This document shows, one piece after another, positions 1,759-16,244 of a DNA stretch of 16,864 bases. Under the pieces are notes generated by a model. It had not been told where the DNA came from. It saw only the letters and a program-made list of their open reading frames with translations, and ran no database searches. This DNA comes from Candidatus Aerophobota bacterium (GTDB lineage: Bacteria > Aerophobota > Aerophobia > Aerophobales > JAGGXI01). Location: positions 1 through 16,864 of the forward strand of contig JAGGXI010000015.1 in NCBI GenBank assembly GCA_021163155.1, in the 5' to 3' direction. A program made the position numbers and the translations under genes. Each line of letters opens with the position of its first letter. Position 1 is the first letter of the stretch.

Positions 1759-2073
1759 TGGACCCATTTCCCTAGACAAAAAACTGCCATGTTTAAGCTA
1801 CAATTCGAGTCCCTTTATCTTATTTGTTTTTGCCTCTTGTCCATGAATGATTCTCTTATCCCCTCAGTAGCTATAGACTTCCATCTTCTTATCTGCTGTG
1901 GATGAACTTTGTACTCGCTGGCTAATTCAGCTGAAGTCTTCTCTTTCCTAAGAGCTTCTAATGCTACTTTCGCCTTAAAGACCGGTAGATATTTTTTCCT
2001 GATATTTCCCATAGTGGACCTCCTATTTTTATTTTACCTGTAGCTTAATGTACTGTCCAGTTTTTGGGGTCCA
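1759..2073 (-). mobile_element. IS3-family remnant with both terminal repeats, internally deleted
   Basis: The ends are imperfect 20-bp inverted repeats: 1759-1778 begins TGGACCC and ends CTAGACA; the complement of 2054-2073 begins TGGACCCC and ends CTGGACA. They match at 13 of 20 positions, clustered at the two ends as usual for IS3 elements. A perfect subterminal inverted 10-mer TTAAGCTACA lies at 1793-1802 and, complemented, at 2039-2048. Full-length IS3 elements are about 1.2-1.5 kb; here only 315 bp remain, holding the start of orfA and no orfB. The flanks TGAGG and CTATA do not match, so there is no target duplication. This suggests deletion or recombination after insertion. The right end truncates the yhaN-type gene. 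Confidence 0.8.
1815..2012 (-). pseudogene. IS3-family transposase OrfA, truncated
   Basis: OrfA supplies the helix-turn-helix DNA-binding part of the IS3 transposase, normally about 90-100 residues and joined to OrfB by frameshifting. The first ~50 residues here are typical: a basic start (MGNIRKKY), then FKAKVALEALRKEKTSAELA and the recognition helix VHPQQIRRWK. The frame ends at residue 65 with KRQKQIR, and no DDE-type OrfB follows before the element's other end. AGGAGG lies six bases upstream of the ATG. It is a dead fragment inside the remnant at 1759-2073. Confidence 0.85.
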
Positions 2074-2776
2074 CTATATTTACTCGATTTTGTTCTTGTA
2101 TTATATTTTCTATTTCTTCAGCAATTTCTTCCCTGTTTCTATGTAAGTCGTCAAATTTTTGGACATCATTTTTTATTTCTCGAAGCTGTGCATTAATTTC
2201 TTTAACGCTCCTAAGCAGAGAATTGATTTCCGGTGCACTACCTTGGGGCTTAAATAATTCGCCTGCATCTTTTTCGATAGTTCTCTGAATTTCTGAGAGA
2301 GAACTAGCGCCGATTCCAGTTCCTGCGCTGTAGATGCGTCCTTTGACTGCCTCGCTATTGAGTGTTTCAAAATCCTGGAGTTCGGTGAGTCCAAAGGCGT
2401 AGATGTTCTCGAAAATGTCTTTGTTAGCATGCCCGAGGAGGTTAGAGAGCTCTGTGGTTCCACCTGTTGAACCATCAGGAAAAATTACCTTTACATCATT
2501 GCTCCCCTTGGAATATCGTTCAATTATGTATCTTGTATTATCGCCAGTCGATACAATTAATCTACCGCCGTGATTACCGCCTGCAAGCGGTAGGTAAAGG
2601 TTGAGTCTACTGCGTCTGTCAGGAAAGCCGAAGAGTATCCGCTTTTGGAAAGATAGAATTGTTGATTTCCCAGCTTCATTCGATCCAATAAAGATGGTGA
2701 GACCCGATGTCAAATTCTTTATGTAATAATCGTGAAATATCGCAAAACCGTCAATATAAATTTCTTCAAACTTCAT
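2045..2776 (-). pseudogene. yhaN: YhaN-type SMC-like ATPase, cut off by an IS end
   Basis: YhaN-type proteins are SbcC/Rad50-like ATPases that pair with the metallophosphoesterase encoded just upstream and are thought to handle DNA ends. The N-terminal ATPase lobe is intact: a Walker A of GSNEAGKST at residues 31-39, the FGFPDRRSR and PLAGGNHGGRL stretches typical of the family, and FGLTELQDFETL in the Q-loop region. A coiled-coil begins near residue 185. Native sequence ends at about residue 233. The last ten codons (IVDPKNWTVH) are read from the IS3 terminal repeat. Family members have roughly 900-1000 residues, so the rest of the coil, the hinge and the C-terminal lobe with signature and Walker B motifs are lost. 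It starts six bases after the yhaO-type stop, evidence of a former two-gene operon. Confidence 0.85.
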
Positions 2777-2782
2777 GAGAAT

Positions 2783-4048
2783 TCATCCCCCAAGTTTATC
2801 CAGACAGAGTGTTTCTGCCTTTTTTATTAAATCAAGAAAATCTTCATCATCAATGGGTTCAAGAAGTTTTCTTCCACCTGGAGAGGTAAATAAGGGTTCG
2901 AGGGACTCTTTCAGTTCAGCTATCTTAGTCTTATCATGTGAAAATTCTTCAAACAGCCTGACCAAATCGCCGATAAAGTCCTTGCGTTCCAACAGTGATT
3001 TCCGATCGATTTCAGGATTCGTATTGTCCTCAATGCTTTCAATCCAAACGAATTGTTGTTCTCCTTCTTCATCCTCCCTTATGTCTCCGAGGATGTCATC
3101 TAAAACACCTTTTCGAGCGATAGATGAGTGCAGGGTACTTCTACCGGCAAGAATAATTTTGCAAACTGATGAGCGTTCCCCTGCTTCTTCACGGATGTTT
3201 TCGATGTAGTTGTGTATTTTTGAGATTAGTTCTTGTTCTGTATAGAGGAAGTCGATTGATAGCTCTTCTTCAAACCATCTTATGGAAGCGATCTCGATAA
3301 ATTCGGCAGTTGGTTCACTATTTTCGTTAACATTGACCAGGAAGCATCCTCTAGCGCCTGTCTCTTTGGGATGAAGACCCTGAGGATTCCCCGGATAAAT
3401 TACCAGCGGATTATCCTCATTTATAATAGCCTTTTTGTGGATATGACCGAGAGCCCAATAATCAAAATTTCGAGTGATTAAGTCCTGTAATGTGCAAGGT
3501 GCATAAGGTTCGTGTCCTGTGTTAGTGCCAACATTGCAATGTAACATACCAATGGTGAATAGTGTTTTTTTTGATTGTGATATTTTAGGGAATTTGTTAG
3601 TAAGATTTGTTTTTATCTCTCGATTGTGAAAGCTAATGCCATAAATTTGGGCAATTTCCTCGCCATTCTTTTCGACCAGGACCTTCTCCACAGATTTTCC
3701 TTTGAAGATATGAACTTTTTTTGGCCAGTCTAAATTTGCTGACCATCCATCTAATGGGTCATGGTTTCCATGTACAATATATGCTTTTATTCCCGACTCA
3801 GATAATCTTTTTAGTCCATCTCGAAATCGAAGCTGTGCTCGTAAGCTTCTGTCCGCCCCATCGTAAATATCCCCTGTGATTAAGAGAAAATCTACTTGTT
3901 TTTCAATACAAAGATCGATTATCTTATTAAATGCTTTAAACGTTGCCCCTGTTAATTCTAAACTTATTTCTTCACTTACTTCAGAAATCCCCTTAAACGG
4001 ACTATCTAAATGCAGGTCTGCTGTATGTATGAAACTAAATGCTTTCAT
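2783..4048 (-). CDS. yhaO: YhaO/SbcD-type metallophosphoesterase (DNA nuclease, 421 aa)
   Basis: Probable Mn-dependent exo/endonuclease subunit of an SbcCD-like complex. All five metallophosphoesterase motifs are visible: D11-x-H13, GDIYD at 59-63, GNHD at 94-97, the histidine of GMLH at 170, and GHIH at 201-204. The C-terminal ~200 residues are acidic and probably form the cap and partner-binding region. Length is normal for YhaO. A GGTGG ribosome binding site lies seven bases before the ATG. The next gene, its ATPase partner, is truncated by the IS, so this subunit is left without a local partner. It may work alone, pair with another ATPase, or be decaying. Transcription could come from the mrr gene 274 bp upstream or from a promoter in that gap. 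Confidence 0.88.
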   Translation of the reverse strand: MKAFSFIHTADLHLDSPFKGISEVSEEISLELTGATFKAFNKIIDLCIEKQVDFLLITGDIYDGADRSLRAQLRFRDGLKRLSESGIKAYIVHGNHDPLDGWSANLDWPKKVHIFKGKSVEKVLVEKNGEEIAQIYGISFHNREIKTNLTNKFPKISQSKKTLFTIGMLHCNVGTNTGHEPYAPCTLQDLITRNFDYWALGHIHKKAIINEDNPLVIYPGNPQGLHPKETGARGCFLVNVNENSEPTAEFIEIASIRWFEEELSIDFLYTEQELISKIHNYIENIREEAGERSSVCKIILAGRSTLHSSIARKGVLDDILGDIREDEEGEQQFVWIESIEDNTNPEIDRKSLLERKDFIGDLVRLFEEFSHDKTKIAELKESLEPLFTSPGGRKLLEPIDDEDFLDLIKKAETLCLDKLGG

Positions 4049-4214: not shown

Positions 4215-4295
4215 GGGTCAGGTCTCCACATTTGACATTTCTCTGCCTCATACCATAATTGATTTAACTTTATGTCAAATGTGGAGACCTGACCC
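4215..4295. repeat. Perfect 24-bp inverted repeat, REP/MITE-like
   Basis: Positions 4215-4238 and 4272-4295 are perfect inverted copies (24 bp) around a 33-base spacer; the outer ends read GGGTCAGGTCTCC. It fills the middle of the 274-bp gap between the mrr-like gene and yhaO. The rest of that gap (4049-4214) shows only a weak CTGCGGC/GTCGCAG stem near 4152-4176. From memory, repeats with GGTCAGGTCTCC ends recur in many environmental genomes near REP-associated (Y1) transposases. A T-rich run follows on the plus strand only, so it is not a terminator for the leftward operon. Confidence 0.7.
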
Positions 4296-4322: not shown

Positions 4323-5090
4323 CTATGCTCTTTCTCCAAAAACTTCGTCAAACTCCGCTATTGTAGAAATACAGTTCCGTGATAGAGCTTCCAAGAGTTC
4401 TCTCAATGTTGCTGCATCAAGAATATCCTGCGGAAGATAAATTCCGTGAGAATCCAAGTCCTGCAACGATTCCTTTATGGGAAGTTTGGGGAGAAGCATC
4501 CCAAACAGTGATAGATCATGAAAGAGCGGTAACGCATACAGGGCTAGCGCAAGATGTTTTGCACGCAATTCTTTAAATTTGGTTTGCCTTTCTTTTGATA
4601 ATAAGTTCGCTTTCCTAAAAATTCGTGAATTAATTGGCTCCGTATACTCTCGAAGAGGGTCAGCTACCTTGTACAATTCTGGAGTAAAGTAGTGTTCACT
4701 CCAAACATTGATAAAGAGATCTTGAAACTCTCTCCAATTCACGAGTTTTACTGGACTTTTCTTGACAGTATCAAAGGCACCACTTTGAAAACCAACAGAT
4801 GAGACAATTAAACCAACATTTGCTCCAAAGTCAGAAACGACTGTTCTAAAAGCATGCACTATTGTTTTAGGGACCCGAGTTTTCCAATGCTTACATTCGA
4901 TAAGATATTTGATTTCAGGTACTCTAGAATGATCTTCAGCATATACGTCGACATCAACTGTCCCACGTGTTGTCTCAATGTTTTTATCTACCTTCGCATA
5001 AAAACCACATTCACGCAAAATCTGACCAACTTCATTTTGTAAATTTTTCCAAGTTTCTGGAGAGTGCGTAATTTGTACTGATGTTTTCAT
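4323..5090 (-). CDS. Mrr-type restriction endonuclease (255 aa)
   Basis: Predicted DNA endonuclease of the Mrr_cat type within the PD-(D/E)XK superfamily; Mrr proteins cut modified or foreign DNA. An N-terminal helix (about 10-30) is followed by the catalytic core: TVDVDVY with D46/D48, then LIECKHW with E65-C-K67, and VGLIVSSVGFQSGA at 92-105, the usual downstream strand and helix. The C-terminal ~120 residues are helical, without a recognised domain, and may bind DNA or partners. The ribosome binding site GTGAGG (5104-5099) overlaps the stop codon of the 42-codon ORF upstream, so the two are probably translationally coupled. It lies downstream of the type III res gene and is probably the last gene of that operon. 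Confidence 0.82.
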   Translation of the reverse strand: MKTSVQITHSPETWKNLQNEVGQILRECGFYAKVDKNIETTRGTVDVDVYAEDHSRVPEIKYLIECKHWKTRVPKTIVHAFRTVVSDFGANVGLIVSSVGFQSGAFDTVKKSPVKLVNWREFQDLFINVWSEHYFTPELYKVADPLREYTEPINSRIFRKANLLSKERQTKFKELRAKHLALALYALPLFHDLSLFGMLLPKLPIKESLQDLDSHGIYLPQDILDAATLRELLEALSRNCISTIAEFDEVFGERA

Positions 5091-5100
5091 TGATTAATCC

Positions 5101-5229
5101 TCACGAAAAGCTCAGCGCCCGCGGTTCATCCGCGGTCAGTTGCAATGACTCAATCTGCCAATAATAATGGTCACGGTCCCGTTTTTTATAGAAGCTTATT
5201 TCCTTAATGACTTCATTGTATAACGCCAT
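5101..5229 (-). CDS. 42-codon ORF between res and the mrr-like gene
   Basis: The ATG at 5229-5227 lies inside the end of res; the two frames overlap by 17 bp. The TGA at 5103-5101 sits within the ribosome binding site of the mrr-like gene, ten bases before that ATG. Overlap at both ends is typical of a coupled operon gene. The peptide begins MALYNEVIKEISFYKKRD, continues with DHYYWQIE and ends in an acidic to neutral tail. It shows no signal peptide, membrane segment or family I know. Its own upstream Shine-Dalgarno is weak, as usual for re-initiation. Near its 3' end the DNA carries CCGCGG twice (5119-5124, 5130-5135) around a five-base loop, able to form a GC-rich hairpin. It could be the stump of a longer lost gene. 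Confidence 0.45.
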   Translation of the reverse strand: MALYNEVIKEISFYKKRDRDHYYWQIESLQLTADEPRALSFS

Positions 5230-8044
5230 TTCTTAAATTACGGAACCACAAAGCGTATGTTTCCGGCCTTAAAAGATCGAATGTGTAATATTGGGCAGTG
5301 CTATCCTGGAATTCTTCAGGCAGATCAATCGGGTTTATTTGACGCAAACGTTTATTGACGTTTTCAAAATGGTCTTTTCCAAATCGCTCTTTTGCTCGTG
5401 TAACCTCTTCTTGATCCTCGTCGCTTTTTATTTCAACAACTCGGATTATCTCTTTTATGCCTTGATCCTGCAATTCTCTTAATTTGCTTAAATTAGTATG
5501 AGGGTTATCTTCTGAGAGTTTATCCATATAATGCTGCAAATCAATCTTTATAAAGAAATCGGGATTGAAGCTTCTGCGAACTCTATCTTTACCGGCTTTC
5601 CAGAATTCATAACTGAGGCTGTAAAATCCCATGTCTCTTGATTTAATCCAGGCGTCTATGTATTTAAAGTGCTCAACGAGTTTAAAGACAAAGTCACGTT
5701 CAGGACCGTGAGATACAATAACCAAATTAAGAGGTGTTTCCAGCATAGATGTGTTTACAGCATAGAAAGGTTTAGATTTTATTAATGGGCGTATATATTC
5801 AGACTCCTCTGCGCCCGCAAAATCCATAGCCAACTGCCCCTCTGCCTCTTTGGTTCTTTTTTGGAAGTCCCTGATAACAAATTCATTCTCATCGGTAAGT
5901 TCTTCTTCGTAATCTTCGGAAACAAAAATGCTTGTATCTCTGTCAAGCTCATTGGTCCGGGCGCTTGCCATATCCATATCCAGTGTTTTTATACCGATCA
6001 GCTCGCCCTCAATATTGGTATGAACGCGTTTCTTTTTGCCTCGCGGAAGGAACTGGTTAAAAAACAGCTCTATTGCTTTCTTATTATTCTCTGATAGCCT
6101 ATTACCTTCTATGCCTGCTTTTGCCATAGCTTTACGGATAACTTTTTCTATTGTCTCCTCGTCCGGCAAATCATTAACTATAATTCCTTCACCAAAATCA
6201 AAATGTTTAGTTTCGAACTGCCTCAAGGCAAATCTATTTGCGATTTCGCCGGCTATCTGGTCTATTGTGTAAAAATTTCGGGTTAGGGCAAACTTTTTTC
6301 TATCTATCATATATGTAACATTTAAATGCAGTTTATCCGGAGAAGGAGTGAGAACAAGCTCCCTGTCGCGCATATCCTGTTTTGACGGTTTTGCATCCCG
6401 AAGCTTGACATCAGGAATATACTCTAAGTTGAAGATATTGAAGTTATGTTTTGACCTGGCATCAGGATCCTTGTCCACAATTATTTTTGAAATAAACCGC
6501 GTTTCGCAATCAGTAACAGCATATAATAATTGCTTTATATGTTCTGCGAATTTTTCATGATTTGTAATAGTAACAATAGGATAATTTCCTAAGACGCGGC
6601 CCCAGGGGACATTTCTGGGAACACGTAAACCTCGACCTAACACCTGAGAGATTAAAAGCTTTGAGTTGAAAACGCGCTCTTCCATCGGCACTATTTGATA
6701 TACATTATCAACATCCCAGCCTTCAGAGAGTTTATTAACAGCAAATATAAATTCAACCTTGCCGCCTGGTTTATTAGGATCTATCTCTTCAATAGCATCG
6801 AGTTTTTCCTGATAATCTGCATCGGTAGGCTTGCTGATAACGCAAATCACTTTCTCACTGGCAATCTGGTATAACTGAGATGGCGGCAAATGGCTAAATT
6901 CTTCTCGCGTGGTTTTTAGATAATCAGCAAGAGCTTTAGTAAACAACTCTGTATTCTTTCGAGCACTCGTTTGTCTTCCATTTATAAAGACAGTGATAGG
7001 TTTAAGACGGGGTCTATCGTTGCCATCGCAATATGAATACTTTTGCTTATTTTCATCGTGGGTAATTAGTATTTGTTCAAACTTCTGGGACGTAGTTAAC
7101 TCTGCATCACCATTTTCTGCTTCGGTTTTTATGATAGGATTGATTTTTTTTATAACCCTATCATTGGTAGCATCATTTATGGAATAATCATAGATAACAT
7201 CTGCGAAATACTCATCCTGATTGTAGGGCGTGCCGGTAAAACCGATATGCCTTGTTATCTTTGGCTCTTCCCTGATGAATTTCATCCATAACCTTTCATT
7301 CCTTGTATCCCTCCGGCCTTTTATTTCTTCAAGCTCTAACAGGTTATCCCTGTATACCAAATGTGTATAGGCATGATGCACTTCATCGCTTAAAACAAGA
7401 ACCTCCTCAACCTGTGAAAAGAGAGTATCGCCAATAGAATTATTATCCTTGTTATAAATGGAATTGATATTTTCGATCACTATAGAATTGTCTACTATAG
7501 GGTTATTTTCATTTAAGAGATTAATGGGGACATTGCGGTATTTCAGAGGCAGTTTTTCTTGCAGCCTTAAGCCCTTTTTGCCATAGAGATATTCTCTAAA
7601 TTTACCGGTTAGGCCCATTTCGATAACTGTTGAGGAAGGCCCAAGCACCAGAACGCGCTTCACCTTACCCATGACAATGGATAAATAGGCGATAGCAAAC
7701 ATAACATAAGATTTACCAGTACCGGTTGCCATATGGACAACACCGGAGAGTCTATTAGGTAAAGGTAGGTGTCTTAGGAAGTTTTCTTCGCTTTGGAATC
7801 GCAGTTGTATGGCCTCTTTCTTCTTAAAATTCTCCTTAGCAAGTTGAGTAATATCTTTGTATCCACCACCCCAAAGATAAATCAAAACCTCTTTTATAGC
7901 CTTAAATTGAAACTCTCTTCCGCCAGCTAGCTCCCGGACAAAATCTTCCACTTCAGAAAAATCAAACTTTTCATAATTACATTTTCTGGTCTTGATATCA
8001 AGGGTATGGTCTCCTAAATTAAGTCGTTTAACTTTTCTGGCCAT
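5213..8044 (-). CDS. res: Type III restriction enzyme, Res helicase-nuclease subunit (943 aa)
   Basis: ATP-dependent subunit that, with Mod, recognises unmodified sites, moves along DNA and cuts. The superfamily 2 core shows Walker A ATGTGKS at 106-112, DEVH at 220-223, and motif III within GFTGTPYN near 268-275. Further on are the LSEGWDVDNV motif and motif VI in QVLGRGLRVPR. The C-terminal nuclease is intact: NPDFF at 827-831 and VEIKSD with E871/K873, the PD...(D/E)XK pattern of type III Res proteins. Length is normal (about 900-1000). It begins six bases after mod, with AGGA as ribosome binding site inside the mod end. Its end overlaps a 42-codon ORF. No lesion is seen, so it is probably active. 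Confidence 0.92.
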   Translation of the reverse strand: MARKVKRLNLGDHTLDIKTRKCNYEKFDFSEVEDFVRELAGGREFQFKAIKEVLIYLWGGGYKDITQLAKENFKKKEAIQLRFQSEENFLRHLPLPNRLSGVVHMATGTGKSYVMFAIAYLSIVMGKVKRVLVLGPSSTVIEMGLTGKFREYLYGKKGLRLQEKLPLKYRNVPINLLNENNPIVDNSIVIENINSIYNKDNNSIGDTLFSQVEEVLVLSDEVHHAYTHLVYRDNLLELEEIKGRRDTRNERLWMKFIREEPKITRHIGFTGTPYNQDEYFADVIYDYSINDATNDRVIKKINPIIKTEAENGDAELTTSQKFEQILITHDENKQKYSYCDGNDRPRLKPITVFINGRQTSARKNTELFTKALADYLKTTREEFSHLPPSQLYQIASEKVICVISKPTDADYQEKLDAIEEIDPNKPGGKVEFIFAVNKLSEGWDVDNVYQIVPMEERVFNSKLLISQVLGRGLRVPRNVPWGRVLGNYPIVTITNHEKFAEHIKQLLYAVTDCETRFISKIIVDKDPDARSKHNFNIFNLEYIPDVKLRDAKPSKQDMRDRELVLTPSPDKLHLNVTYMIDRKKFALTRNFYTIDQIAGEIANRFALRQFETKHFDFGEGIIVNDLPDEETIEKVIRKAMAKAGIEGNRLSENNKKAIELFFNQFLPRGKKKRVHTNIEGELIGIKTLDMDMASARTNELDRDTSIFVSEDYEEELTDENEFVIRDFQKRTKEAEGQLAMDFAGAEESEYIRPLIKSKPFYAVNTSMLETPLNLVIVSHGPERDFVFKLVEHFKYIDAWIKSRDMGFYSLSYEFWKAGKDRVRRSFNPDFFIKIDLQHYMDKLSEDNPHTNLSKLRELQDQGIKEIIRVVEIKSDEDQEEVTRAKERFGKDHFENVNKRLRQINPIDLPEEFQDSTAQYYTFDLLRPETYALWFRNLRNGVIQ

Positions 8045-8050
8045 AATAAT

Positions 8051-10234
8051 TTATCCTATTTTTATAATTTTGCTTTCATTACCGTGTTTATCAATGGCAA
8101 TTAGATGACTTCTCTTGCCAAGTCCTTCTACCTCCATTATGCCATCTTTACCAATCTCTTTAGCATAGACAGCGGTATCCATATCAAAGACCTTGCCATC
8201 ATAATCTTTATCAATCAAAATCATAGAAAGTCCCTCAAAGCCTTTAAACCGCTCTTTATTCTTATTTAGAATGCCTGTTTCAAACCTGGTAATTTTAAAT
8301 CCACCTTCAACGCGTTCAACAACTATTTTTACATTCTCATTAAAATAGAACCCTACTGAGGATATAAGCTTGTTTATATCCGCTTGCGATGCAGGTTGTT
8401 CCTCAATTTGAAATTGGCGTGAGACATCTTCTAAAACCTTGTAAGGAAATTTGAGCAGTTTGAAATCAACATCTTCTTTATTGCTATTTTTTAAAGTTGT
8501 ATCGCTAACTACAGTGCATGTTTCAGGAACAACAATATAATAGTCGCCTTTCAATTTGCCGCCGCTTGCGGTAATTATCCCTTGTAAGTATTCCTCATCA
8601 ATCCGAACATTTTTTAAATACTCATCGTCCCATACAGGATAAATCTCTACGGGGTTACCTTCTTTTTCTGCATAAATATTAGGAAGCTTGTATTTCTTTG
8701 AGTAATCTGCCTGCCGCGTTTCACTTGGCGCAGGCAGGTCCATAATGCTGAAAAGACCTAATACAAAAGAGATATAGACATCCTTATTTTTGCGAAGGTT
8801 CATAATACGGGAGAAATCATAGGCTCCGGCAGAAACAATGCAAAATGGTTTTGGTGGTTTGCCGTATTTTTCATTCTTTTTAGTAGTAGAACCTAATTTT
8901 TTGGATTCAGCAATATTTAGAATTCGCTTTTGCATTGTGTATATAGCGTGCTTCCCGAAATCACACATAATCCAACGCCGACCAAGTTTTTCTGCGACAG
9001 CGGCGGTTGTGCCGGAGCCGGCAAAGCAATCAAGAACAAGGTATTCCGATTTAGTAGAAGTATATATTACTCTCTCTAAAAGCTGTTCAGAATTTTCTGT
9101 AGGATAGTCGTACAATTGAGCATATCCCTGAATGTCTGACCAATCTGTTCCTAAATATCTCCATGTCCTCTTTAATTCTGGCAATCCGTTATTTTTATTT
9201 ATTCTTAACCAACCGTTCTTCTCCATTTTCTTGATAATTTCTTGATTTTTCCACATCCATCTTCTTTTTCGAGGAGGATAATATTCTTTACCAAAAACAA
9301 TTATTGGATCATTTTTTTCCTTTTTAGAAGAAGCATGCATCTCGACCCATCTTTGACTCCTCAATAACATTTTTCGTCCTTTAATTTCAATATCTAAATC
9401 ATCAAATCTATTACGAAGGAATCCTAATATTTCTTCTTTTTTCTCTGAACCGCCGATTCTTAATTCAATTTGAAATGGCTCTTCTTTTCTCTGCTGTTCA
9501 AAATAATAACTGTCAGAGTTGGTATAGAAAAGGACTGAATCAAAAGAAGTATAGTATCTTCTTCCTTCGTTTTTTAATCTTGAGGTTCTATTGATGAATA
9601 TTTCATTCTTAAAATTTCCTTTACCAAAAACCTCATCCATAACAATTTTGAGAAAGTGCCCGAAATGATAATCAATTCTAACAAAAATACTTCCATCCGG
9701 AGCCAAAATTTCTCTCAAATAAATCAATCTTTCTCTTAAACTTTCAATAAATTCACTCCCCATAACTTTCGCGCTATAGCTCGTTTCACCAGAACCGCCA
9801 CCATATTCATCCCCAGTACCGAACGGCGGGTCAATATAAATCAACTTAACCTTTCCCTTAACCTTATCCTTTATTAGAGGGTCCTGATTCATATAACAGG
9901 TTTTTAGGAACTGGAGGTTATCACCTTGCACAATCAAATTTTTCCAATCATCACCCTTATCATTTCCAAAACTCCTGACAATTTGCAGAGGCGCAGCTCC
10001 TCCAGTAATAGCGGCCTGCGCTAATATTACGGATTCGGCTCTTTTGCCTGCATATTCGATAGTGGGTACTTTGTATTTATCAAGTTCCTTATAATCAAAC
10101 TTTCCTGACTGTCTCAGCTTATCAAAGAAACCAGGAGAAAGCTTCATCATTAAATCCTCCGGGATTTCTGTTTGATTGTTAATACATTCGGAAAGAACCC
10201 TTAAATCTTCTTCTGTCAGGTTAATCTTAGCCAT
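8051..10234 (-). CDS. mod: Type III DNA adenine methyltransferase, Mod (727 aa)
   Basis: Methylates adenine (N6) at the recognition site and gives the Res complex its specificity. The order of motifs marks a beta-class enzyme: motif IV DPPFGTGD at 135-142 comes before the SAM-binding motif I DCFAGSGTT at 402-410. YPTENSEQLLERVI (378-391), the usual lead-in to motif I, is present. The stretch of about 210-360 between them is variable and basic and should be the target recognition domain. About 300 residues follow motif I, a long C-terminal part that probably binds Res. AGGAG lies nine bases before the ATG. A promoter with an operator-like palindrome lies 80-107 bp upstream. No simple repeats that could cause phase variation are seen in it. 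Confidence 0.92.
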   Translation of the reverse strand: MAKINLTEEDLRVLSECINNQTEIPEDLMMKLSPGFFDKLRQSGKFDYKELDKYKVPTIEYAGKRAESVILAQAAITGGAAPLQIVRSFGNDKGDDWKNLIVQGDNLQFLKTCYMNQDPLIKDKVKGKVKLIYIDPPFGTGDEYGGGSGETSYSAKVMGSEFIESLRERLIYLREILAPDGSIFVRIDYHFGHFLKIVMDEVFGKGNFKNEIFINRTSRLKNEGRRYYTSFDSVLFYTNSDSYYFEQQRKEEPFQIELRIGGSEKKEEILGFLRNRFDDLDIEIKGRKMLLRSQRWVEMHASSKKEKNDPIIVFGKEYYPPRKRRWMWKNQEIIKKMEKNGWLRINKNNGLPELKRTWRYLGTDWSDIQGYAQLYDYPTENSEQLLERVIYTSTKSEYLVLDCFAGSGTTAAVAEKLGRRWIMCDFGKHAIYTMQKRILNIAESKKLGSTTKKNEKYGKPPKPFCIVSAGAYDFSRIMNLRKNKDVYISFVLGLFSIMDLPAPSETRQADYSKKYKLPNIYAEKEGNPVEIYPVWDDEYLKNVRIDEEYLQGIITASGGKLKGDYYIVVPETCTVVSDTTLKNSNKEDVDFKLLKFPYKVLEDVSRQFQIEEQPASQADINKLISSVGFYFNENVKIVVERVEGGFKITRFETGILNKNKERFKGFEGLSMILIDKDYDGKVFDMDTAVYAKEIGKDGIMEVEGLGKRSHLIAIDKHGNESKIIKIG

Positions 10235-10313
10235 ATATGTTATCTCCTAAAATTGCTATAACTATAAGCCGTAGCTGCTTAAATTACATATAGTTACATC
10301 TTTAGTCTCATCA

Positions 10314-10341
10314 AATATACACAAATGCATTTGTGTATCAA
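10314..10341 (-). promoter_or_regulatory. Promoter of mod-res with a perfect palindromic operator in its core
   Basis: On the minus strand a -35 TTGATA (10341-10336) and a -10 TATATT (10319-10314) stand 16 bp apart, each one base from consensus. The interval 10317-10338 is a perfect 22-bp palindrome, centred on ATGCAT and bounded by ATAC/GTAT. A dimer bound there would cover the core promoter. An outer inverted pair GTCTCA (10305-10310) and TGAGAC (10355-10360) brackets it roughly symmetrically. It is the only such site in the 164-bp fic-mod gap. The binding protein is not evident; the winged-helix tail of the Fic protein or an unlinked repressor are options. Confidence 0.7.
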
Positions 10342-10398
10342 AAAAACTGCAAAGTGAGACACAGATAAACTTTTGTTTCATCGGTTATAGATTAAACA

Positions 10399-11493
10399 TT
10401 ATTTCACAATTTGCAGCAATTTATTAAAAATATATATACAGGGTTTTCGCCCGCTTCCCTTACGCAAAACCGATATTATTCCTTCTTTTTCAAGCAATTT
10501 CATAAAACGCATCACGCTTGGCTTAGAAATACCTGACTCACGAATAAAATCGGTGGTGCTGAAAACCGGCCTGGCAAAAAGCGTATCAAGAATTTTAATC
10601 ACGTATTGAGACCGGGTAATAGCCTGAATGTGTTCTTTTTCCTTTTCATATAAGTCCAGAATAACCCTTGCTTTTCTGCTATTTATTTTTGCCTGCTCAA
10701 CTATGGCGGTTAAAAAGAACTCTATCCACTCTTCCCATTCTTTATCTTGGGTAACGGCTTTTAACCGGTCATAATATTCATCTCTATTAGCCTCAAAGTA
10801 CTCACTAATATAGAACATCGGAGTGCTAAGCAGTTTTTTCTCGTATAAAAACAAAGGAATTAAAATCCTTCCCACTCTACCATTGCCATCTACAAAGGGA
10901 TGAACTATCTCAAATTGAGCATGGACAATGGCAAGTTGAACTAAAGCGTCCTTTTCCTCATAATGAATATACTTCTCAAAGTTAGATAAAAACTCCATTA
11001 AGCGCATCGGTTCCGGAGGAACATAATCCGCGTGTTCAATGGGGGTACCTGGTTTACCAATCCAATTTTGGACCATTCTAAATCTGCCTCTTGCTTTATC
11101 TTTACCTCTTACGCTGTCTAACAGTATGCTATGGATTTCTTTTATCATATTTAATGTGATTGGCTTTTTTACTAGCCAGTTAACCGCTATACCAATAGCC
11201 TTGCGGTAATTTATTATTTCCTGAATATCTTTTTGTTTTTCAGTTTGTATATCCACTCGGGCAGAAGCTTCAAATTCAAGAACTTCTATAAGGCTGGCCT
11301 GTGTCCCTTCAATTCGCGAAGAAAGAACTGCCTCATTGGTGGTAAGAGGCGATAAGAAAACATGCGGGTTTATAATTCCCTGCAGAATTCCATCGTAGCG
11401 CGCTAATTCTGCGTTTGCCTTTCCAATAAGGCTTATAAATTTTACCCAGTCAAGATTTTGTAGCGGTAAAGAACTTGGAATACACGGTTTCAT
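10399..11493 (-). CDS. fic: Fic-domain protein with inhibitory motif and winged helix (364 aa)
   Basis: Predicted AMP-transferase that modifies a target protein hydroxyl using ATP. The complete active site HPFVDGNGRVGR is at 198-209, including catalytic H198 and ATP-binding residues. An N-terminal Fic_N region carries the self-inhibitory motif SSRIEG (S58, E62, G63), which makes this a class II Fic protein that holds itself inactive until relieved. The C-terminal ~70 residues look like a winged helix (TTDFIRESGISKPSVMRFMK, then a short wing). Layout and size match the Shewanella oneidensis SoFic type; single-gene Fic proteins of that type have been reported as anti-phage systems. It starts 12 bases after the helicase stop, with a GAGAGG site, so the two are co-transcribed. 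No separate antitoxin gene is seen, nor needed with the internal motif. Confidence 0.9.
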   Translation of the reverse strand: MKPCIPSSLPLQNLDWVKFISLIGKANAELARYDGILQGIINPHVFLSPLTTNEAVLSSRIEGTQASLIEVLEFEASARVDIQTEKQKDIQEIINYRKAIGIAVNWLVKKPITLNMIKEIHSILLDSVRGKDKARGRFRMVQNWIGKPGTPIEHADYVPPEPMRLMEFLSNFEKYIHYEEKDALVQLAIVHAQFEIVHPFVDGNGRVGRILIPLFLYEKKLLSTPMFYISEYFEANRDEYYDRLKAVTQDKEWEEWIEFFLTAIVEQAKINSRKARVILDLYEKEKEHIQAITRSQYVIKILDTLFARPVFSTTDFIRESGISKPSVMRFMKLLEKEGIISVLRKGSGRKPCIYIFNKLLQIVK

Positions 11494-11505
11494 TGCCTCT
11501 CTCTT

Positions 11506-14500
11506 TTAATTTTCAAATTTCTTCTCTAATAATTTGCTCAACACATCAATTTTTGTTTGTCCTCTTTCGTTAGGTATCAGGGTAAATTTGTTTATCCGCA
11601 GAAACTTATATCCATAGCTTTCCAGCTCTAATTGTCTTGCAATGTCATAATCAAGATATTCTTGAGAAAAGTTATGGGCAGTAACTATCGCAGGGTTTTT
11701 TGTATGATATTCAAGACCGTCATATTCTAAGATAAGAGACTTTTCTTTTCCTCTTTCAGATAGGGTCAGGAGAAAATCTACCCTATATTTCGGAACGTAA
11801 CGATGGAGTGTTTCCTCAATATACTTTCCCATAGGAAACTGGGCGATAATTCTGATTTTGTCTCTGTTCTTTTTGTAAAACTCAGTGTTTGTAATTTGAA
11901 TATATAAATTTTTTTCTGCCGGTGAGCCAAAGATTGATTCATCTTCCACAAAGTTATCTTTGGCATTTTCAAGCAACTGCTTGTAATGTTTAAGCGCGTC
12001 ACCAAGACGGGTGTCAGAATATTCCTTAATCGGCATACTATGAACAAAGACCATAGTATCTTTTGCCCGGCTGAATCCCACATTTAACCTCTGCATTTTC
12101 AATTTTCTTATATTATCAGCGCTTCCACCTATTATGGGGTAAATATTGCGCAGGCTACCGTTTCCAATTTTCTTATCTTCAACAAAAGAATAGTACACAA
12201 TATCACGCTCTTCCCCCTGTACACTACCTACAAACCATATAGTCAACTTATGCTTCTTTTTAAGGGAATAGTAATCCGGAAACTCTTTGCGTAACACCTC
12301 TTCTGTGCGATCACGCTGTTCTCTGAATGAGGTGATTATCCCTATGGTCCCTTTGAAGCCTGAGGATATTAGAGACTGGATATCTTTTTTTATTGCCTCA
12401 ATCTCATCTAAGTTTACGTTTGTTCCGGAATTGCCCTGGGTCTCTACTTTTATAAAACGAAGGACTTCCTTAATCGGTTTAGTCCTGATTCTGTTTATTA
12501 TCAATGGGACCTGAGTTGGTTTATAGAAGAATTCATTAGAGTAATCTATTATTTCCGAGAAACTGCGGAAATGCGTATCTAAAGAAACGGAGTAGTTTTT
12601 GATAGCCTTGGCGAAATTTAAGGTGGAGGTTCTTATGCTAAACGTCTTAAGCCAATCAAGAGTGCCCTCTTCAGGTTTGTAAAATACAGGTTCAACTTCT
12701 TGATCCTCTGGATCAATTTCCTGCGAGACAGCCTGTGAGATTTCTTGTTTTTCTTTTTCACTAAGCGTTACTTTATAATCTTTTTGATAACTATCCAATA
12801 TCTCTTTAAAATACTGGCCTGCATATTGGGAATTAACATTAAAAGCGCTTACCGCGCCGTACTGCAATTCATCCCCGAAAATAACGACTTGCTTTGCCCT
12901 CAGGATTAAGGAAATAGACTCGGCGATAGAGACTTGAGACGCTTCATCAATAACCAGAATATCTATAACATCTTCCTCCATAGGAAAATATTGAGATATT
13001 AGGTCAGGCTCAGATATAATACAGGATATATTCTCAAGGATAACTTTTAATTCCTGTGCCTTCAGGCGTTTTTTGCTTCGCAGCGAGACTAAAATACGCT
13101 CAACATCACCGGTATGATTGTTAAGGTTTTTCAGCCGTTTATCGTTAATATATTCTAAGTGTTTGTGGATAGATTCATAATAAGAGGATATTAAGCTCAT
13201 ATCCGGAGTATCACAAAGTTCATTCCTGGCAAGTTCAGAAAATAATTGTATATATTTAAATGTCTTTTCCACTCCTTCGTTTGATAAAAGGCAACCAGCA
13301 TCTTTTAAATTATCCAGCTTTATCCCCGCTGCTTTTAGGAGGGGATAAAAGTATTCTTTAACTGTTTTTAGTGAAGTTATCGTTTCTTGACTGATATGTT
13401 TTATGATATCCCTTGAATGTGACAAAAAGCTAAAAAAGTGTTTAATATCTTCATCTTCTAACCCTAAATCTTTTTTGAGCGCAAGTAAAAGCTCAATGTC
13501 CTGCCTTTTGGTTTCGATCTCGATATTCTTTTTTACGCCGGATTCTAAGTCCTTAAGCATTAATTTACCCTTATCCTTAGAGGCTAAATGAGAAATATTC
13601 GATAAAATGTTTTCATATTGCAAATCGCTGAGTTTGTTTAAACTTGATTCAAGCGCATTTTTACTTTCCTTCCTCCGGAGCACCATTGAAAGCCTGGCTG
13701 GCAACTTAACCTTCAGTTTTTTTATATCAGCAAATACCAATGAGCCTCCCTGTAGATATGCGCCAATTCTTGATACTGCCTCCGAAAAATCCTCCAGCAC
13801 TTCCATATTAATTTTCCTCATCCGTATAATATCAGAAATGGCGAGGGAAGATTTGTTAACAAAGTTGCAGGTTTGGAGTAAAGAAGGAAGTAAATCACGC
13901 TTTTCATATAAAAGAAATAGCTGTGTGCTACTTAGCGTATCTACCTGCGATTTATATATACTGTTTATGCATTCCTTGACTAAATTTGTATCAAGGGATT
14001 CGTCTTTTCCTATCTTTGGGATTGAAATATCACCTTTCCAAATATTGGCTTGTTTTAATTCATTTTCCAACCTTTCCAGTTTAAATAGCTTGTCAATGAG
14101 GTCTTTATATTTACCCGAATTATCCCAATAACTATTTAACTGAGCTTCAACGGCACCGCGCCAATTTTCAATATCCTTCTTTACCGCATCCTCATTGAAA
14201 TCGTTTGCTCTGTTATTAGCCGCAGTAATTACCGGGCTAGAAAGTGTATTTTTAGAGGTGTTGATACCTTTTTCATCCTCTGAAATCCTTAGAACAGAAG
14301 GCTTTGCCTTAGGGTGCAATTCTCTGAATTTATCAATAAGCATCCTGTCAATTACATCAAGGGCAGCTTTTTTGTGTGATGTTATCACTACTGATTTATT
14401 CTGCTGATTGGCCCAATAAGTTATAGCCGCTATTGTATAAGATTTACCGGTTCCGGGTGGGCCATCAACAACAATGGTTTTGTTTTTCGGGTTATCTAAT

Positions 14501-15819
14501 GCGGTAAGGATCCTTTGCTGATTTTTATTTAGACTTAAAGGAATGGTTGATAGTAGATTATTTACTGACTTTTTAGGATATTTTTTACTGTAGGCAGAAT
14601 CAACTTCGTCTGTCGTATTTCTGACGTTTCCGGAGACGTAATCTTTCACAAAATCAATAAGTTTACCGCCTTTACCGGCATCGATACGAGTTATAAGTTC
14701 AGAGTAGTCAAAAAGTCTTCTATCTTCTTTCTGGACAACTTGCAGTCCGAACCTGTAATTTATAGAAGGCTTATTATCAGCGCTAAGAGGCTTAAATGCA
14801 TATTCCAACAAAAATGGATTAAAGAAATCATAATTATTCTGCAAAAATCTCTCTACACCCAAAAGATAATCATTAGCTTCATTTAACCTGGCTGCACGGG
14901 GAGTGGTAAGAATATTACTAAACTCAAAAGAATTTATTGCCGGCGTGTTTATCAGCAAAATATTTCTGTCGCATGATAAGACAATCTCTTCGCTTTTTTC
15001 CTCAATATTTAACTCTATGAGGAAAAGAGGATATTTATCTGTAGCTGTGTTCTGGCTGTCTCCTGTTGAGGAAATCTGGTGAAAGAAGATATAGGGCTTT
15101 CCCATTCCAATGAAGCTTGAGAATTTTCTTATCGTTGCATAAAGATCGTACATCTTGAGTTCAAAAGAGCTAGTTTTAATTATTTCTTTAACCTCATCGT
15201 GAAACGACTTTTCGTCGCCGGCTTTTCCGGCAGTTACTCGCAAATAATTGTATATCTCTTGTTCGATGCTGTTAGGGTTTAAAGACGTTATAGGAGTGGA
15301 TGTAAATGGCAGTTCTTGTAGTAATTCCTCTTTCTTTTGCCTCTGGAGTCTCAGGAGTATTTCTTGGATAGCATTTCTGAAAGCGAGGTTAAATTTTCTT
15401 AAGCCTTCATGTAACGCTTTTTCCTCAAATTCTTTATTTGCTGCTACCGTGGTATTGTCCTTGTTATCCCCAGCTATTATTGTTTTATCACTCTCCGTTT
15501 TTCTTAGCTGTGTCCTTACCTGTTCAATGCAATCTTTTAAGAATTCTAAGTTATAGTTTGTCTCAAGTTTTTGAAGCAGTGCTTTCTTAAAGTCGTCTTC
15601 ACTAAGAGAAACAGAATATTCCCCTTGCTTGACAGATATATTTAACACGGCTTTGTTTTTTATGGAATCCAGCACCTTTTTCTGGAATTCCGGAAAAACT
15701 GACAGCTCTGCCGTGAGACTGTCATCTGTCCACTTATATCTGATTTTAGTCTGGAATCTAAATCGGGTTTCAGTGTAGGTTGCAAAATAATTTAAGATGC
15801 TTTTGGTGAATGTGTTCAT
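11506..15819 (-). CDS. Superfamily 1 helicase with C-terminal nuclease domain (1437 aa)
   Basis: Large DNA or RNA helicase of the AAA_11/AAA_12 (Upf1/Dna2-like) type. An N-terminal region of about 440 residues is unfamiliar to me. The helicase core has Walker A GPPGTGKS at 453-460, motif Ia VVITSHKKAALDVI, a long mostly helical insert of about 450 residues, and Walker B DEAS at 958-961. GDELQYGAVSAF follows, then THFRSF (motif IV), VGSVQGEERDIVYYS (motif V) and LNVGFSRAKDTM (motif VI). The last ~120 residues form a DUF559/Vsr-like nuclease fold: EYDGLEYH at 1365-1372, then DIARQLELESYGYKFLRIN. Helicase-nuclease fusions of this kind are common in defence islands. An AAGGG site precedes the ATG. 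A broken HTH gene ends 15 bp upstream and fic follows at 12 bp. Confidence 0.85.
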   Translation of the reverse strand: MNTFTKSILNYFATYTETRFRFQTKIRYKWTDDSLTAELSVFPEFQKKVLDSIKNKAVLNISVKQGEYSVSLSEDDFKKALLQKLETNYNLEFLKDCIEQVRTQLRKTESDKTIIAGDNKDNTTVAANKEFEEKALHEGLRKFNLAFRNAIQEILLRLQRQKKEELLQELPFTSTPITSLNPNSIEQEIYNYLRVTAGKAGDEKSFHDEVKEIIKTSSFELKMYDLYATIRKFSSFIGMGKPYIFFHQISSTGDSQNTATDKYPLFLIELNIEEKSEEIVLSCDRNILLINTPAINSFEFSNILTTPRAARLNEANDYLLGVERFLQNNYDFFNPFLLEYAFKPLSADNKPSINYRFGLQVVQKEDRRLFDYSELITRIDAGKGGKLIDFVKDYVSGNVRNTTDEVDSAYSKKYPKKSVNNLLSTIPLSLNKNQQRILTALDNPKNKTIVVDGPPGTGKSYTIAAITYWANQQNKSVVITSHKKAALDVIDRMLIDKFRELHPKAKPSVLRISEDEKGINTSKNTLSSPVITAANNRANDFNEDAVKKDIENWRGAVEAQLNSYWDNSGKYKDLIDKLFKLERLENELKQANIWKGDISIPKIGKDESLDTNLVKECINSIYKSQVDTLSSTQLFLLYEKRDLLPSLLQTCNFVNKSSLAISDIIRMRKINMEVLEDFSEAVSRIGAYLQGGSLVFADIKKLKVKLPARLSMVLRRKESKNALESSLNKLSDLQYENILSNISHLASKDKGKLMLKDLESGVKKNIEIETKRQDIELLLALKKDLGLEDEDIKHFFSFLSHSRDIIKHISQETITSLKTVKEYFYPLLKAAGIKLDNLKDAGCLLSNEGVEKTFKYIQLFSELARNELCDTPDMSLISSYYESIHKHLEYINDKRLKNLNNHTGDVERILVSLRSKKRLKAQELKVILENISCIISEPDLISQYFPMEEDVIDILVIDEASQVSIAESISLILRAKQVVIFGDELQYGAVSAFNVNSQYAGQYFKEILDSYQKDYKVTLSEKEKQEISQAVSQEIDPEDQEVEPVFYKPEEGTLDWLKTFSIRTSTLNFAKAIKNYSVSLDTHFRSFSEIIDYSNEFFYKPTQVPLIINRIRTKPIKEVLRFIKVETQGNSGTNVNLDEIEAIKKDIQSLISSGFKGTIGIITSFREQRDRTEEVLRKEFPDYYSLKKKHKLTIWFVGSVQGEERDIVYYSFVEDKKIGNGSLRNIYPIIGGSADNIRKLKMQRLNVGFSRAKDTMVFVHSMPIKEYSDTRLGDALKHYKQLLENAKDNFVEDESIFGSPAEKNLYIQITNTEFYKKNRDKIRIIAQFPMGKYIEETLHRYVPKYRVDFLLTLSERGKEKSLILEYDGLEYHTKNPAIVTAHNFSQEYLDYDIARQLELESYGYKFLRINKFTLIPNERGQTKIDVLSKLLEKKFEN

Positions 15820-15834
15820 ACTATATCCCTTAAA

Positions 15835-15978
15835 CTATTTATTAGTTCTCATTTTAATAACCACTTCAAGATCCTCTGGCTTAATACGCCATTTACCAAT
15901 CTTTGTAGCCTTAATCTCTTTAGCCTTAATCAAATCCCTTATCCATTCTTCGGTAATATCAAGTTTTTCGCAAGTCGC
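15835..15978 (-). pseudogene. Excisionase-type helix-turn-helix protein, C-terminal fragment
   Basis: The 47 codons before the stop at 15835 read as the second half of an HTH_17/MerR-like excisionase domain: DITEEWIRDLIKAKEIKATK followed by KWRIKPEDLEVVI, the usual helix plus 'GKWRI..EDL' wing. The upstream half (normally 'LTPEQLAE' or similar) is missing in this frame: a TAG lies at 15981-15979 and no ATG or GTG occurs within. A frame shifted by one contains TEQLGDL just upstream, possibly the lost first half after an indel. It ends 15 bp before the helicase, so it was probably the first, regulatory gene of that operon. A start at an internal TTG would leave only 32 residues. Confidence 0.55.
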
Positions 15979-16048
15979 CTAACTGTTCGGTAAACTATTA
16001 AAGTTCTCCAGATGGGTAAGAAGCATTTCGCTTCCCAATTGTAATTTG

Positions 16049-16193: not shown

Positions 16194-16244
16194 TTTATTT
16201 TACCTGTAACTTAATGTAGTGTCCAGTTTTTGGGATCCACTATA
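16194..16244 (-). mobile_element. Solitary copy of the IS3-family orfA-side end
   Basis: Positions 16194-16244 match 2028-2078 at 48 of 51 bases in the same orientation. The copy includes the 20-bp terminal repeat (complement of 16220-16239, TGGATCCC...CTGGACA) and the untranslated leader, but ends before the orfA ribosome binding site and start. No transposase sequence or second terminal repeat follows on its left. Both copies are followed by CTATA. With the remnant at 1759-2073 it brackets about 14 kb of DNA. Confidence 0.85.

Follow-up and report, generated by a model that had tools for sequence, protein, structure and literature searches.

A probable three-gene variant of type III restriction-modification with a slot for exchangeable defence genes, here occupied by fic

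The arrangement of a helicase-nuclease gene, fic, a type III mod/res pair, a small ORF and an Mrr-type endonuclease gene along one strand raises the question of whether these genes form one composite defence system, or whether only part of the group is a conserved unit. The window analysed here, meaning the whole stretch of 16,864 nucleotides, is an entire contig (C50) of a 1.83-Mb draft genome of Candidatus Aerophobota bacterium, which is 93% complete.

Gene layout and the fic-mod junction

The six ORFs share the minus strand, and a palindrome is located between fic and mod:

11506-15819, minus strand: helicase-nuclease, 1437 aa, core gene 1
10399-11493, minus strand: Fic, 364 aa, cargo between helicase and mod
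10317-10338, no strand: perfect 22-bp palindrome ATACACAAATGCATTTGTGTAT, in the fic-mod gap, probable operator
8051-10234, minus strand: Mod, 727 aa, core gene 2
5213-8044, minus strand: Res, 943 aa, core gene 3
5101-5229, minus strand: small ORF, 42 aa, overlapping the end of res, doubtful gene
4323-5090, minus strand: Mrr-type restriction endonuclease, 255 aa, accessory, outside the conserved cassette

The sequence-only reading had described six co-directional genes in close succession with a single break between fic and mod, and both the coordinates and the domain scans agree with this description. Adjacent genes are separated by 12 bp (helicase-fic), 6 bp (mod-res) and 10 bp (small ORF-Mrr), res and the small ORF overlap by 17 bp, and the break at the fic-mod junction measures 164 bp.

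The palindrome in this junction is the sole perfect palindrome of at least 16 bp within the window, and about 0.007 perfect palindromes of 22 bp would be expected from base composition against the one observed. It lies within a promoter-like site, TTGATA-N16-TATATT, recognised by consensus match only, which is on the minus strand and directed at mod (-35 TTGATA from 10341, -10 TATATT to 10314). The palindrome was absent from the other loci examined. Taken with the promoter-like site facing mod, it is probably an operator, and this predicted promoter-operator suggests that transcription of mod-res is possibly separate from that of helicase-fic. That the Fic wHTH domain binds the predicted operator is a guess.

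A conserved helicase-mod-res core

Core gene 1 encodes a helicase of the UPF1-like SF1 group (COG1112-type) whose C-terminal domain is a Vsr-like PD-(D/E)XK nuclease. Pfam identifies AAA_11, AAA_12 and AAA_30 (SF1) domains together with a weak C-terminal MTES_1575 match, and UPF1 and SMUBP-2 are the sole sequence matches in the PDB. All SF1 motifs are retained over the 14 operons compared (Walker A VDGPPGTGKS, DEASQVSIA, QGEERD and LKMQRLNVGFSRA), with a long variable insertion separating motifs I and II. The nuclease pattern YRxDFL...LxxEYDGxExH...RQxExESYG, located in the C-terminal 150 residues, is kept in 14 operons (10 in the nuclease alignment). The predicted structure of the nuclease (pLDDT 80) has ngo0050 (Z 8.3), I-Bth0305I (Z 8.1) and Vsr (1cw0, Z 7.8) as its top matches in VIA-align, with Bax1 and TnsA as further matches, each of these being a PD-(D/E)XK enzyme of Vsr or related type. 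As these scores are moderate (Z about 8), the fold class also rests on the residue pattern; Foldseek returned weak matches only, and the assignment is carried by VIA-align and the conserved residues. The N-terminal 425 residues (model pLDDT 78) gave no usable structural match.

In type III systems, one strand of an asymmetric site is methylated by Mod, and DNA whose sites lack this methylation is cut by the Mod-Res complex between two sites at the expense of ATP. The window Mod matches Pfam N6_N4_Mtase (E=1e-36) and PADLOC MTase_III (195 bits), has EcoP15I Mod among its PDB relatives, and is a beta-class amino-methyltransferase with DPPF preceding FxGSGTT, motifs that are kept in most of the 14 operons. 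Res, matched by Pfam ResIII and PADLOC REase_III, is an SF2 helicase/translocase with a C-terminal PD-(D/E)XK domain (NPDF...VVEIKSD) and the conserved motifs ATGTGKS, DExHHAY, FTGTPYN, EGWDVDNV and QVLGRG; it scores 70.3 bits against NCBIfam BPTD_3080, under the 800-bit curated cut-off. A beta-class Mod, with its catalytic DPPY/F ahead of the AdoMet-binding FxGxG, and an adjacent SF2 Res bearing a C-terminal PD-(D/E)XK domain make up the gene content of a type III system, which the pair is predicted to encode. According to PMC8259958, m6A and m4C activity cannot be told apart from DPPF.

Scanning a four-member Res alignment against genome_contigs yielded 80 loci, 18 of them at 51-66% identity (mostly Desulfobacterota-type metagenome bins, with one Syntrophus and one Atribacteria) and 62 at about 30-33%. 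When all window proteins were compared with these loci by tblastn, the helicase gene was seen to precede mod in those close loci whose sequence reaches far enough upstream, except for L026, where it lies further upstream (L152), and in 0 of the distant loci. The order helicase-mod-res on one strand holds in every locus long enough for all three genes. The helicase is present in 17 of the 18 genomes first found through close-clade Res, and absent in 49 of 50 genomes with a distant (30-33%) Res. The exception, G513, carries a helicase copy in a separate partial cassette with cargo, and close-clade Res was not found in this genome; in G020, one helicase copy lies with cargo (L149), with mod/res absent within 15 kb.

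Among 395 genomes of one phylum, searched at >700 bits for the helicase family and >600 bits for close-clade Res, both genes occur in the same 8 genomes and in no others, and co-occurrence is 5/5 after removal of the anchor genomes. The two lie within about 5 kb of each other on the same contig in 6/8 genomes and on contig-end fragments in the remaining two (G167, G175). Fisher's test returns p = 7e-17 when genomes are treated as independent, which is not fully true, and p = 1.3e-11, again ignoring relatedness, after dropping 3 genomes first fetched by Res. Mantel correlations over 14 operons are 0.89 for helicase-mod, 0.96 for helicase-res and 0.91 for mod-res (p = 1e-4), and the helicase-associated Res proteins form one side of a long, 100% supported branch in the Res tree. 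The relatives compared are nearly all draft metagenome assemblies, and the mod or helicase ORFs of L012, L016, L027 and L158 look broken, through either decay or assembly error.

The exact co-occurrence, fixed order and congruent divergence indicate that helicase and mod/res are not merely island neighbours, and the conserved unit is a three-gene core of helicase-nuclease, mod and res. The sequence-only reading had proposed a composite system of all six genes, and had regarded independent occurrence of helicase-fic and mod-res as the sign of simple island co-location. Co-inheritance of helicase, mod and res sustains the first proposal in part, with Fic, the small ORF and Mrr falling outside the core. 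The linkage found across genomes means that the absence of linkage does not hold for helicase and mod/res, whereas Fic is exchangeable. The pairing of a helicase-fic half with a mod-res half is contradicted by L010, which has helicase-mod-res without fic.

Two other explanations bear on this core. One, which we consider improbable, is that the genes stand together only through the clustering of defence genes on mobile DNA. The lack of conservation of Mrr, the small ORF and Fic in relatives, the IS-end repeats on the flanks of the stretch and the occurrence of Fic and Mrr relatives alone on plasmids are all in its favour; however, the co-occurrence, order and divergence of helicase, mod and res rule it out for the core, while for Mrr a plain defence-island neighbourhood is likely. 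It is somewhat easier to entertain, though still unlikely, that the helicase-nuclease defends on its own as a single gene, in the manner of Hhe, Mokosh type II or PDC-S37, and hitch-hikes beside a Mod-Res that works alone. PADLOC matches the helicase to MkoA, MkoC, PDC-S37 and Hhe, and its distant relatives at 29-41% identity (a Priestia plasmid, L160-L162) are solitary, so that the helicase family at large can do without mod/res. The helicase-like third gene of other type III systems is dispensable for methylation and undetected in the purified enzyme (PMC8259958), and the helicase here may therefore also be auxiliary. Against this, helicase and Res within the clade are nearly always inherited together, and their divergences run in parallel (r = 0.96).

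The cassette looks rare, since helicase searches in three further phyla (245, 237 and 251 genomes), which carried no internal positive control, returned one distant match. Phage records contained no helicase relative. Single-sequence helicase scans of genome_contigs and viral_contigs, and a two-sequence alignment run against viral_contigs, gave no match, these being narrow patterns that carry little weight.

Mrr (Pfam Mrr_cat, PF04471, E=2e-13) and the small ORF have a counterpart in none of the 80 Res loci by tblastn, and Mrr homologues elsewhere are located outside such cassettes. A place for Mrr in the core was considered and dropped; the slot of L026/L152 has a single weakly Mrr-like gene, which scores below the Pfam cut-off. 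The 42-aa ORF is possibly no gene at all: it runs into res, and no relative of it was detected. As a SoFic antitoxin it was dropped on account of its wrong place and lack of relatives.

The helicase-mod slot and its cargo

L010 is the nearest relative, with identities over aligned positions of 58% for the helicase, 64% for mod and 67% for res. Its helicase and mod genes are separated by 20 bp, and fic is absent; in the window, fic opens this junction. The slot is empty in L010, L011, L012 and L019, with helicase-mod gaps of 17-29 bp. Other loci carry diverse contents, assigned by Pfam and PADLOC:

Schlafen AlbA_2-HATPase ATPase: L016, L018, L155, L156 and L025, with fragments in L027
Full Gabija (GajA 700 bits, GajB 531 bits): L025, with Schlafen
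AbiLi and AbiLii, then SIR2 (587 bits) and HerA (989 bits): L152/L026
SIR2 and a truncated HerA-type ORF at the contig end: L147
PycC and PycTM (Pycsar): L150
AAA_21 and DUF4276: L015
AbiD: L024
DUF4258/YokU-like pair: L020
DUF3368: L022
Second Fic (24% identity with that of the window; HPFNNGN replaces HPFxDGN): L158
Smaller mod-res slot, MNT and HEPN: L016, L025
Smaller mod-res slot, DUF559: L013, L015, L017

The slot is a natural catalogue, and those of its genes that lack a known function (e.g. in L018, L023 and L152) make promising candidates for novel anti-phage genes.

The window Fic comprises Fic_N, Fic and a C-terminal wHTH domain (Pfam), has SoFic relatives in the PDB, and scores 384.5 bits against PADLOC SoFic and 179 bits against the NF046030 equivalog, under the 550-bit curated cut-off of the latter. 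Two motifs are intact in it: the inhibitory SSRIEG at residue 58, which conforms to the class II pattern (S/T)xxxE(G/N), and the catalytic HPFVDGNGRVGR at residue 198, which conforms to the SoFic core HxFx(D/E)GNGRxxR. Judged by these motifs, the protein is a predicted class II self-inhibited AMPylase of SoFic type, in line with the earlier description of a self-inhibited Fic in mid-operon. SoFic-type enzymes AMPylate targets, causing abortive infection (PMC12249575). The window protein shares with SoFic its class II Fic type, N-terminal inhibitory helix and C-terminal domain, but differs in sitting inside a restriction-modification cassette; no clear AS1-like antitoxin gene adjoins it, the one small ORF there, of 39 aa, lying across the palindrome.

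tblastn of the window Fic over the 80 Res loci gave matches in three loci, none of them between helicase and mod, and a conserved helicase-Fic pair was dropped. The 23 cassette genomes contain 75 Fic genes in total, with 2 in the slot, 1 just downstream of res and 2 more within about 6 kb. This gives 5/75 within about 20 kb of a cassette against about 0.5 expected, those outside the slot belonging to three genomes (G027, G167 and G030). Fic is enriched near the cassette, as one cargo kind among many. The second slot Fic is so different (24% identity) that Fic is exchangeable cargo, and the variety of the slot contents argues for co-carriage over a coupling of Fic to restriction.

Proposed working and relation to known systems

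We think it probable that the locus represents a variant of type III restriction-modification with three genes, spread by horizontal transfer, and that its helicase-mod slot takes exchangeable second-line defences. Mod would methylate host sites, and the Mod-Res complex would cut unmethylated incoming DNA. The helicase-nuclease would act as a dedicated partner, most likely unwinding and degrading the resulting DNA ends or other infection intermediates; its substrate would be DNA, or possibly RNA, and it may work after or alongside Mod-Res. Fic would be kept inactive by its SSRIEG helix and, should infection proceed, would AMPylate host targets and arrest growth as a reserve device. The Fic wHTH and the palindrome promoter may allow mod-res to be transcribed apart from helicase-fic. 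As complete, self-sufficient systems share the slot, co-expression and co-transfer need fewer assumptions than a Fic-specific trigger.

A tighter coupling, in which a failure of this restriction complex would be sensed by Fic along with the other slot genes, with growth arrest as the response, seems doubtful to us. It draws support from the position of fic 12 bp after the helicase gene on the same strand, the self-inhibitory motif, the recurrence of abortive-type genes at the slot, the independent presence of Fic at the slot in L158 and near the cassette in G027, G167 and G030, and the precedent of PrrC, which senses EcoPrrI inhibition (PMC12707154). However, the slot systems are unrelated and self-contained (Gabija, Pycsar, SIR2-HerA) and functional alone elsewhere, no shared sensing domain was seen among the slot genes, and the closest relative, L010, is without cargo. 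Furthermore, the enrichment of Fic in the slot amounts to two cases including the window (p = 0.035 without the window), and the predicted operator and promoter lie between fic and mod. As regards the earlier proposal of a second-line growth arrest upon failed restriction, arrest or suicide genes do recur at the slot, but the diversity of cargo speaks against a Fic-specific circuit. We hold it equally unlikely that the locus represents a new type III class, in which the UPF1-like helicase-Vsr nuclease would be an obligate third subunit and the operon a dedicated docking site whose swapped-in complete systems (Gabija, Pycsar, SIR2-HerA, AbiL, Fic) fire when restriction fails or is blocked. Under the preferred reading, a restriction variant carrying exchangeable cargo, a defence-island observation becomes a defined, testable unit of three co-inherited genes and one swappable slot.

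Some m4C type III systems, described in PMC8259958, have an extra helicase-like gene 5' of mod (SF2, without nuclease, in >500 genomes) that is dispensable for methylation and undetected in the purified enzyme; Bpe564I of Bordetella pertussis is a predicted m4C type III system in the same source, and the weak score of the window Res against NCBIfam BPTD_3080 is a further point of resemblance. Eco86II/BspHIV resemble our cassette in gene order, with an extra ATPase/helicase gene preceding mod and res on the 5' side, and the helicase indeed lies immediately 5' of mod in L010, L011, L012 and L019 (17-29 bp). By this published description, rather than by comparison of sequences, their third gene is SF2 and lacks a nuclease motif, whereas that of the window is SF1/UPF1-like with a Vsr-like nuclease, and the part of PMC8259958 considered here describes no nested defence systems for them. 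That paper raises the question of what extra helicases do in type III systems, and a clade with a built-in nuclease is well suited to testing it.

UvrD-Cas4 fusions beside Mod/Res, described in 2017 (PMC5704561), likewise place an SF1 helicase and a PD-(D/E)XK nuclease next to type III mod/res, in some cases accompanied by Schlafen-like ATPase-HTH genes resembling those in the slot here, but combine UvrD with a Cas4/PF12705 nuclease, and neither UvrD nor PF12705 is matched by the window helicase in Pfam. CnuH of CoCoNuT type III-B (PMC11090510) has a UPF1-like helicase fused directly to a Vsr-like nuclease, as here, but belongs to an McrBC (type IV) system, whereas the partner here is a type III Mod-Res; no McrB/McrC (CnuB/CnuC) was found among the window ORFs scanned. 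The DUF499-centred, BREX-related Hma systems, made up of an HmaA helicase, an HmaB methylase and an HmaC DUF499 ATPase, differ as well, with no PADLOC match to HmaA/HmaC for helicase or Res and no DUF499 in Pfam.

In the open-access literature (bioRxiv not included) we came across no description of this helicase clade in the role of a type III third gene, and none of complete Gabija, Pycsar or SIR2-HerA sets inside type III systems; with this scope, the result is weak evidence of novelty. The nesting of second-line genes in a restriction-type operon is itself shared with PrrC in EcoPrrI (PMC12707154), and with defence genes embedded in Hma, where they are candidates (PMC12988326), in BREX and in related operons (see also PMC12839542). 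The present case differs from these in that the host operon is a helicase-type III cassette, and in that its slot takes whole multi-gene systems (Gabija, SIR2-HerA, Pycsar).

Slot cargo and Fic genes in related loci
At two loci in other genomes, L149 (G020:C195) and L146 (G513:C63), the helicase is followed by ORFs matching in size the AbiL/SIR2/HerA cargo that occupies the helicase-mod slot of the relative locus L152. No mod or res was found in either, up to the end of the sequence at each locus, and it is possible that mod/res has been lost from both with the cargo retained.

The second Fic known from this slot, at locus L158 (6982-8142), reads HPFNNGNGR. Its Fic motif thereby lacks the acidic position, and the protein may be inactive or altered. 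An additional case of a Fic-type III neighbourhood is L006 (622-5794), on a Limosilactobacillus fermentum plasmid, where a different, 235-aa Fic-family gene lies immediately 5' of a more distant mod/res pair.

IS ends and other features around the island
The island is flanked on each side by an IS-end copy, the two being 94% identical and in direct orientation.

1815-2012, transposase-like ORF (HTH_Tnp_1) after the left IS-end copy
2028-2078, left IS-end direct repeat, 51 bp
2045-4048 (-, the cassette strand), SbcD/Mre11-like gene, then Rad50/YhaN-like gene (Pfam)
4215-4295, perfect 24-bp inverted repeat, GGGTCAGGTCTCCACATTTGACAT, REP/MITE-like
about 15835-16000, excisionase-type HTH reading, YRTVRRLAKNL / DITEEWIRDLIKAKEIKATKIGKWRIKPEDLEVVIK
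16194-16244, right IS-end direct repeat, 51 bp

The right copy is a remnant standing alone. At the left, the Rad50/YhaN-like gene is truncated at the IS end, and the inverted repeat occupies the gap separating the Mrr-like gene from the SbcD-like gene. The HTH reading lies immediately 5' of the helicase gene and is interrupted by an apparent frameshift.
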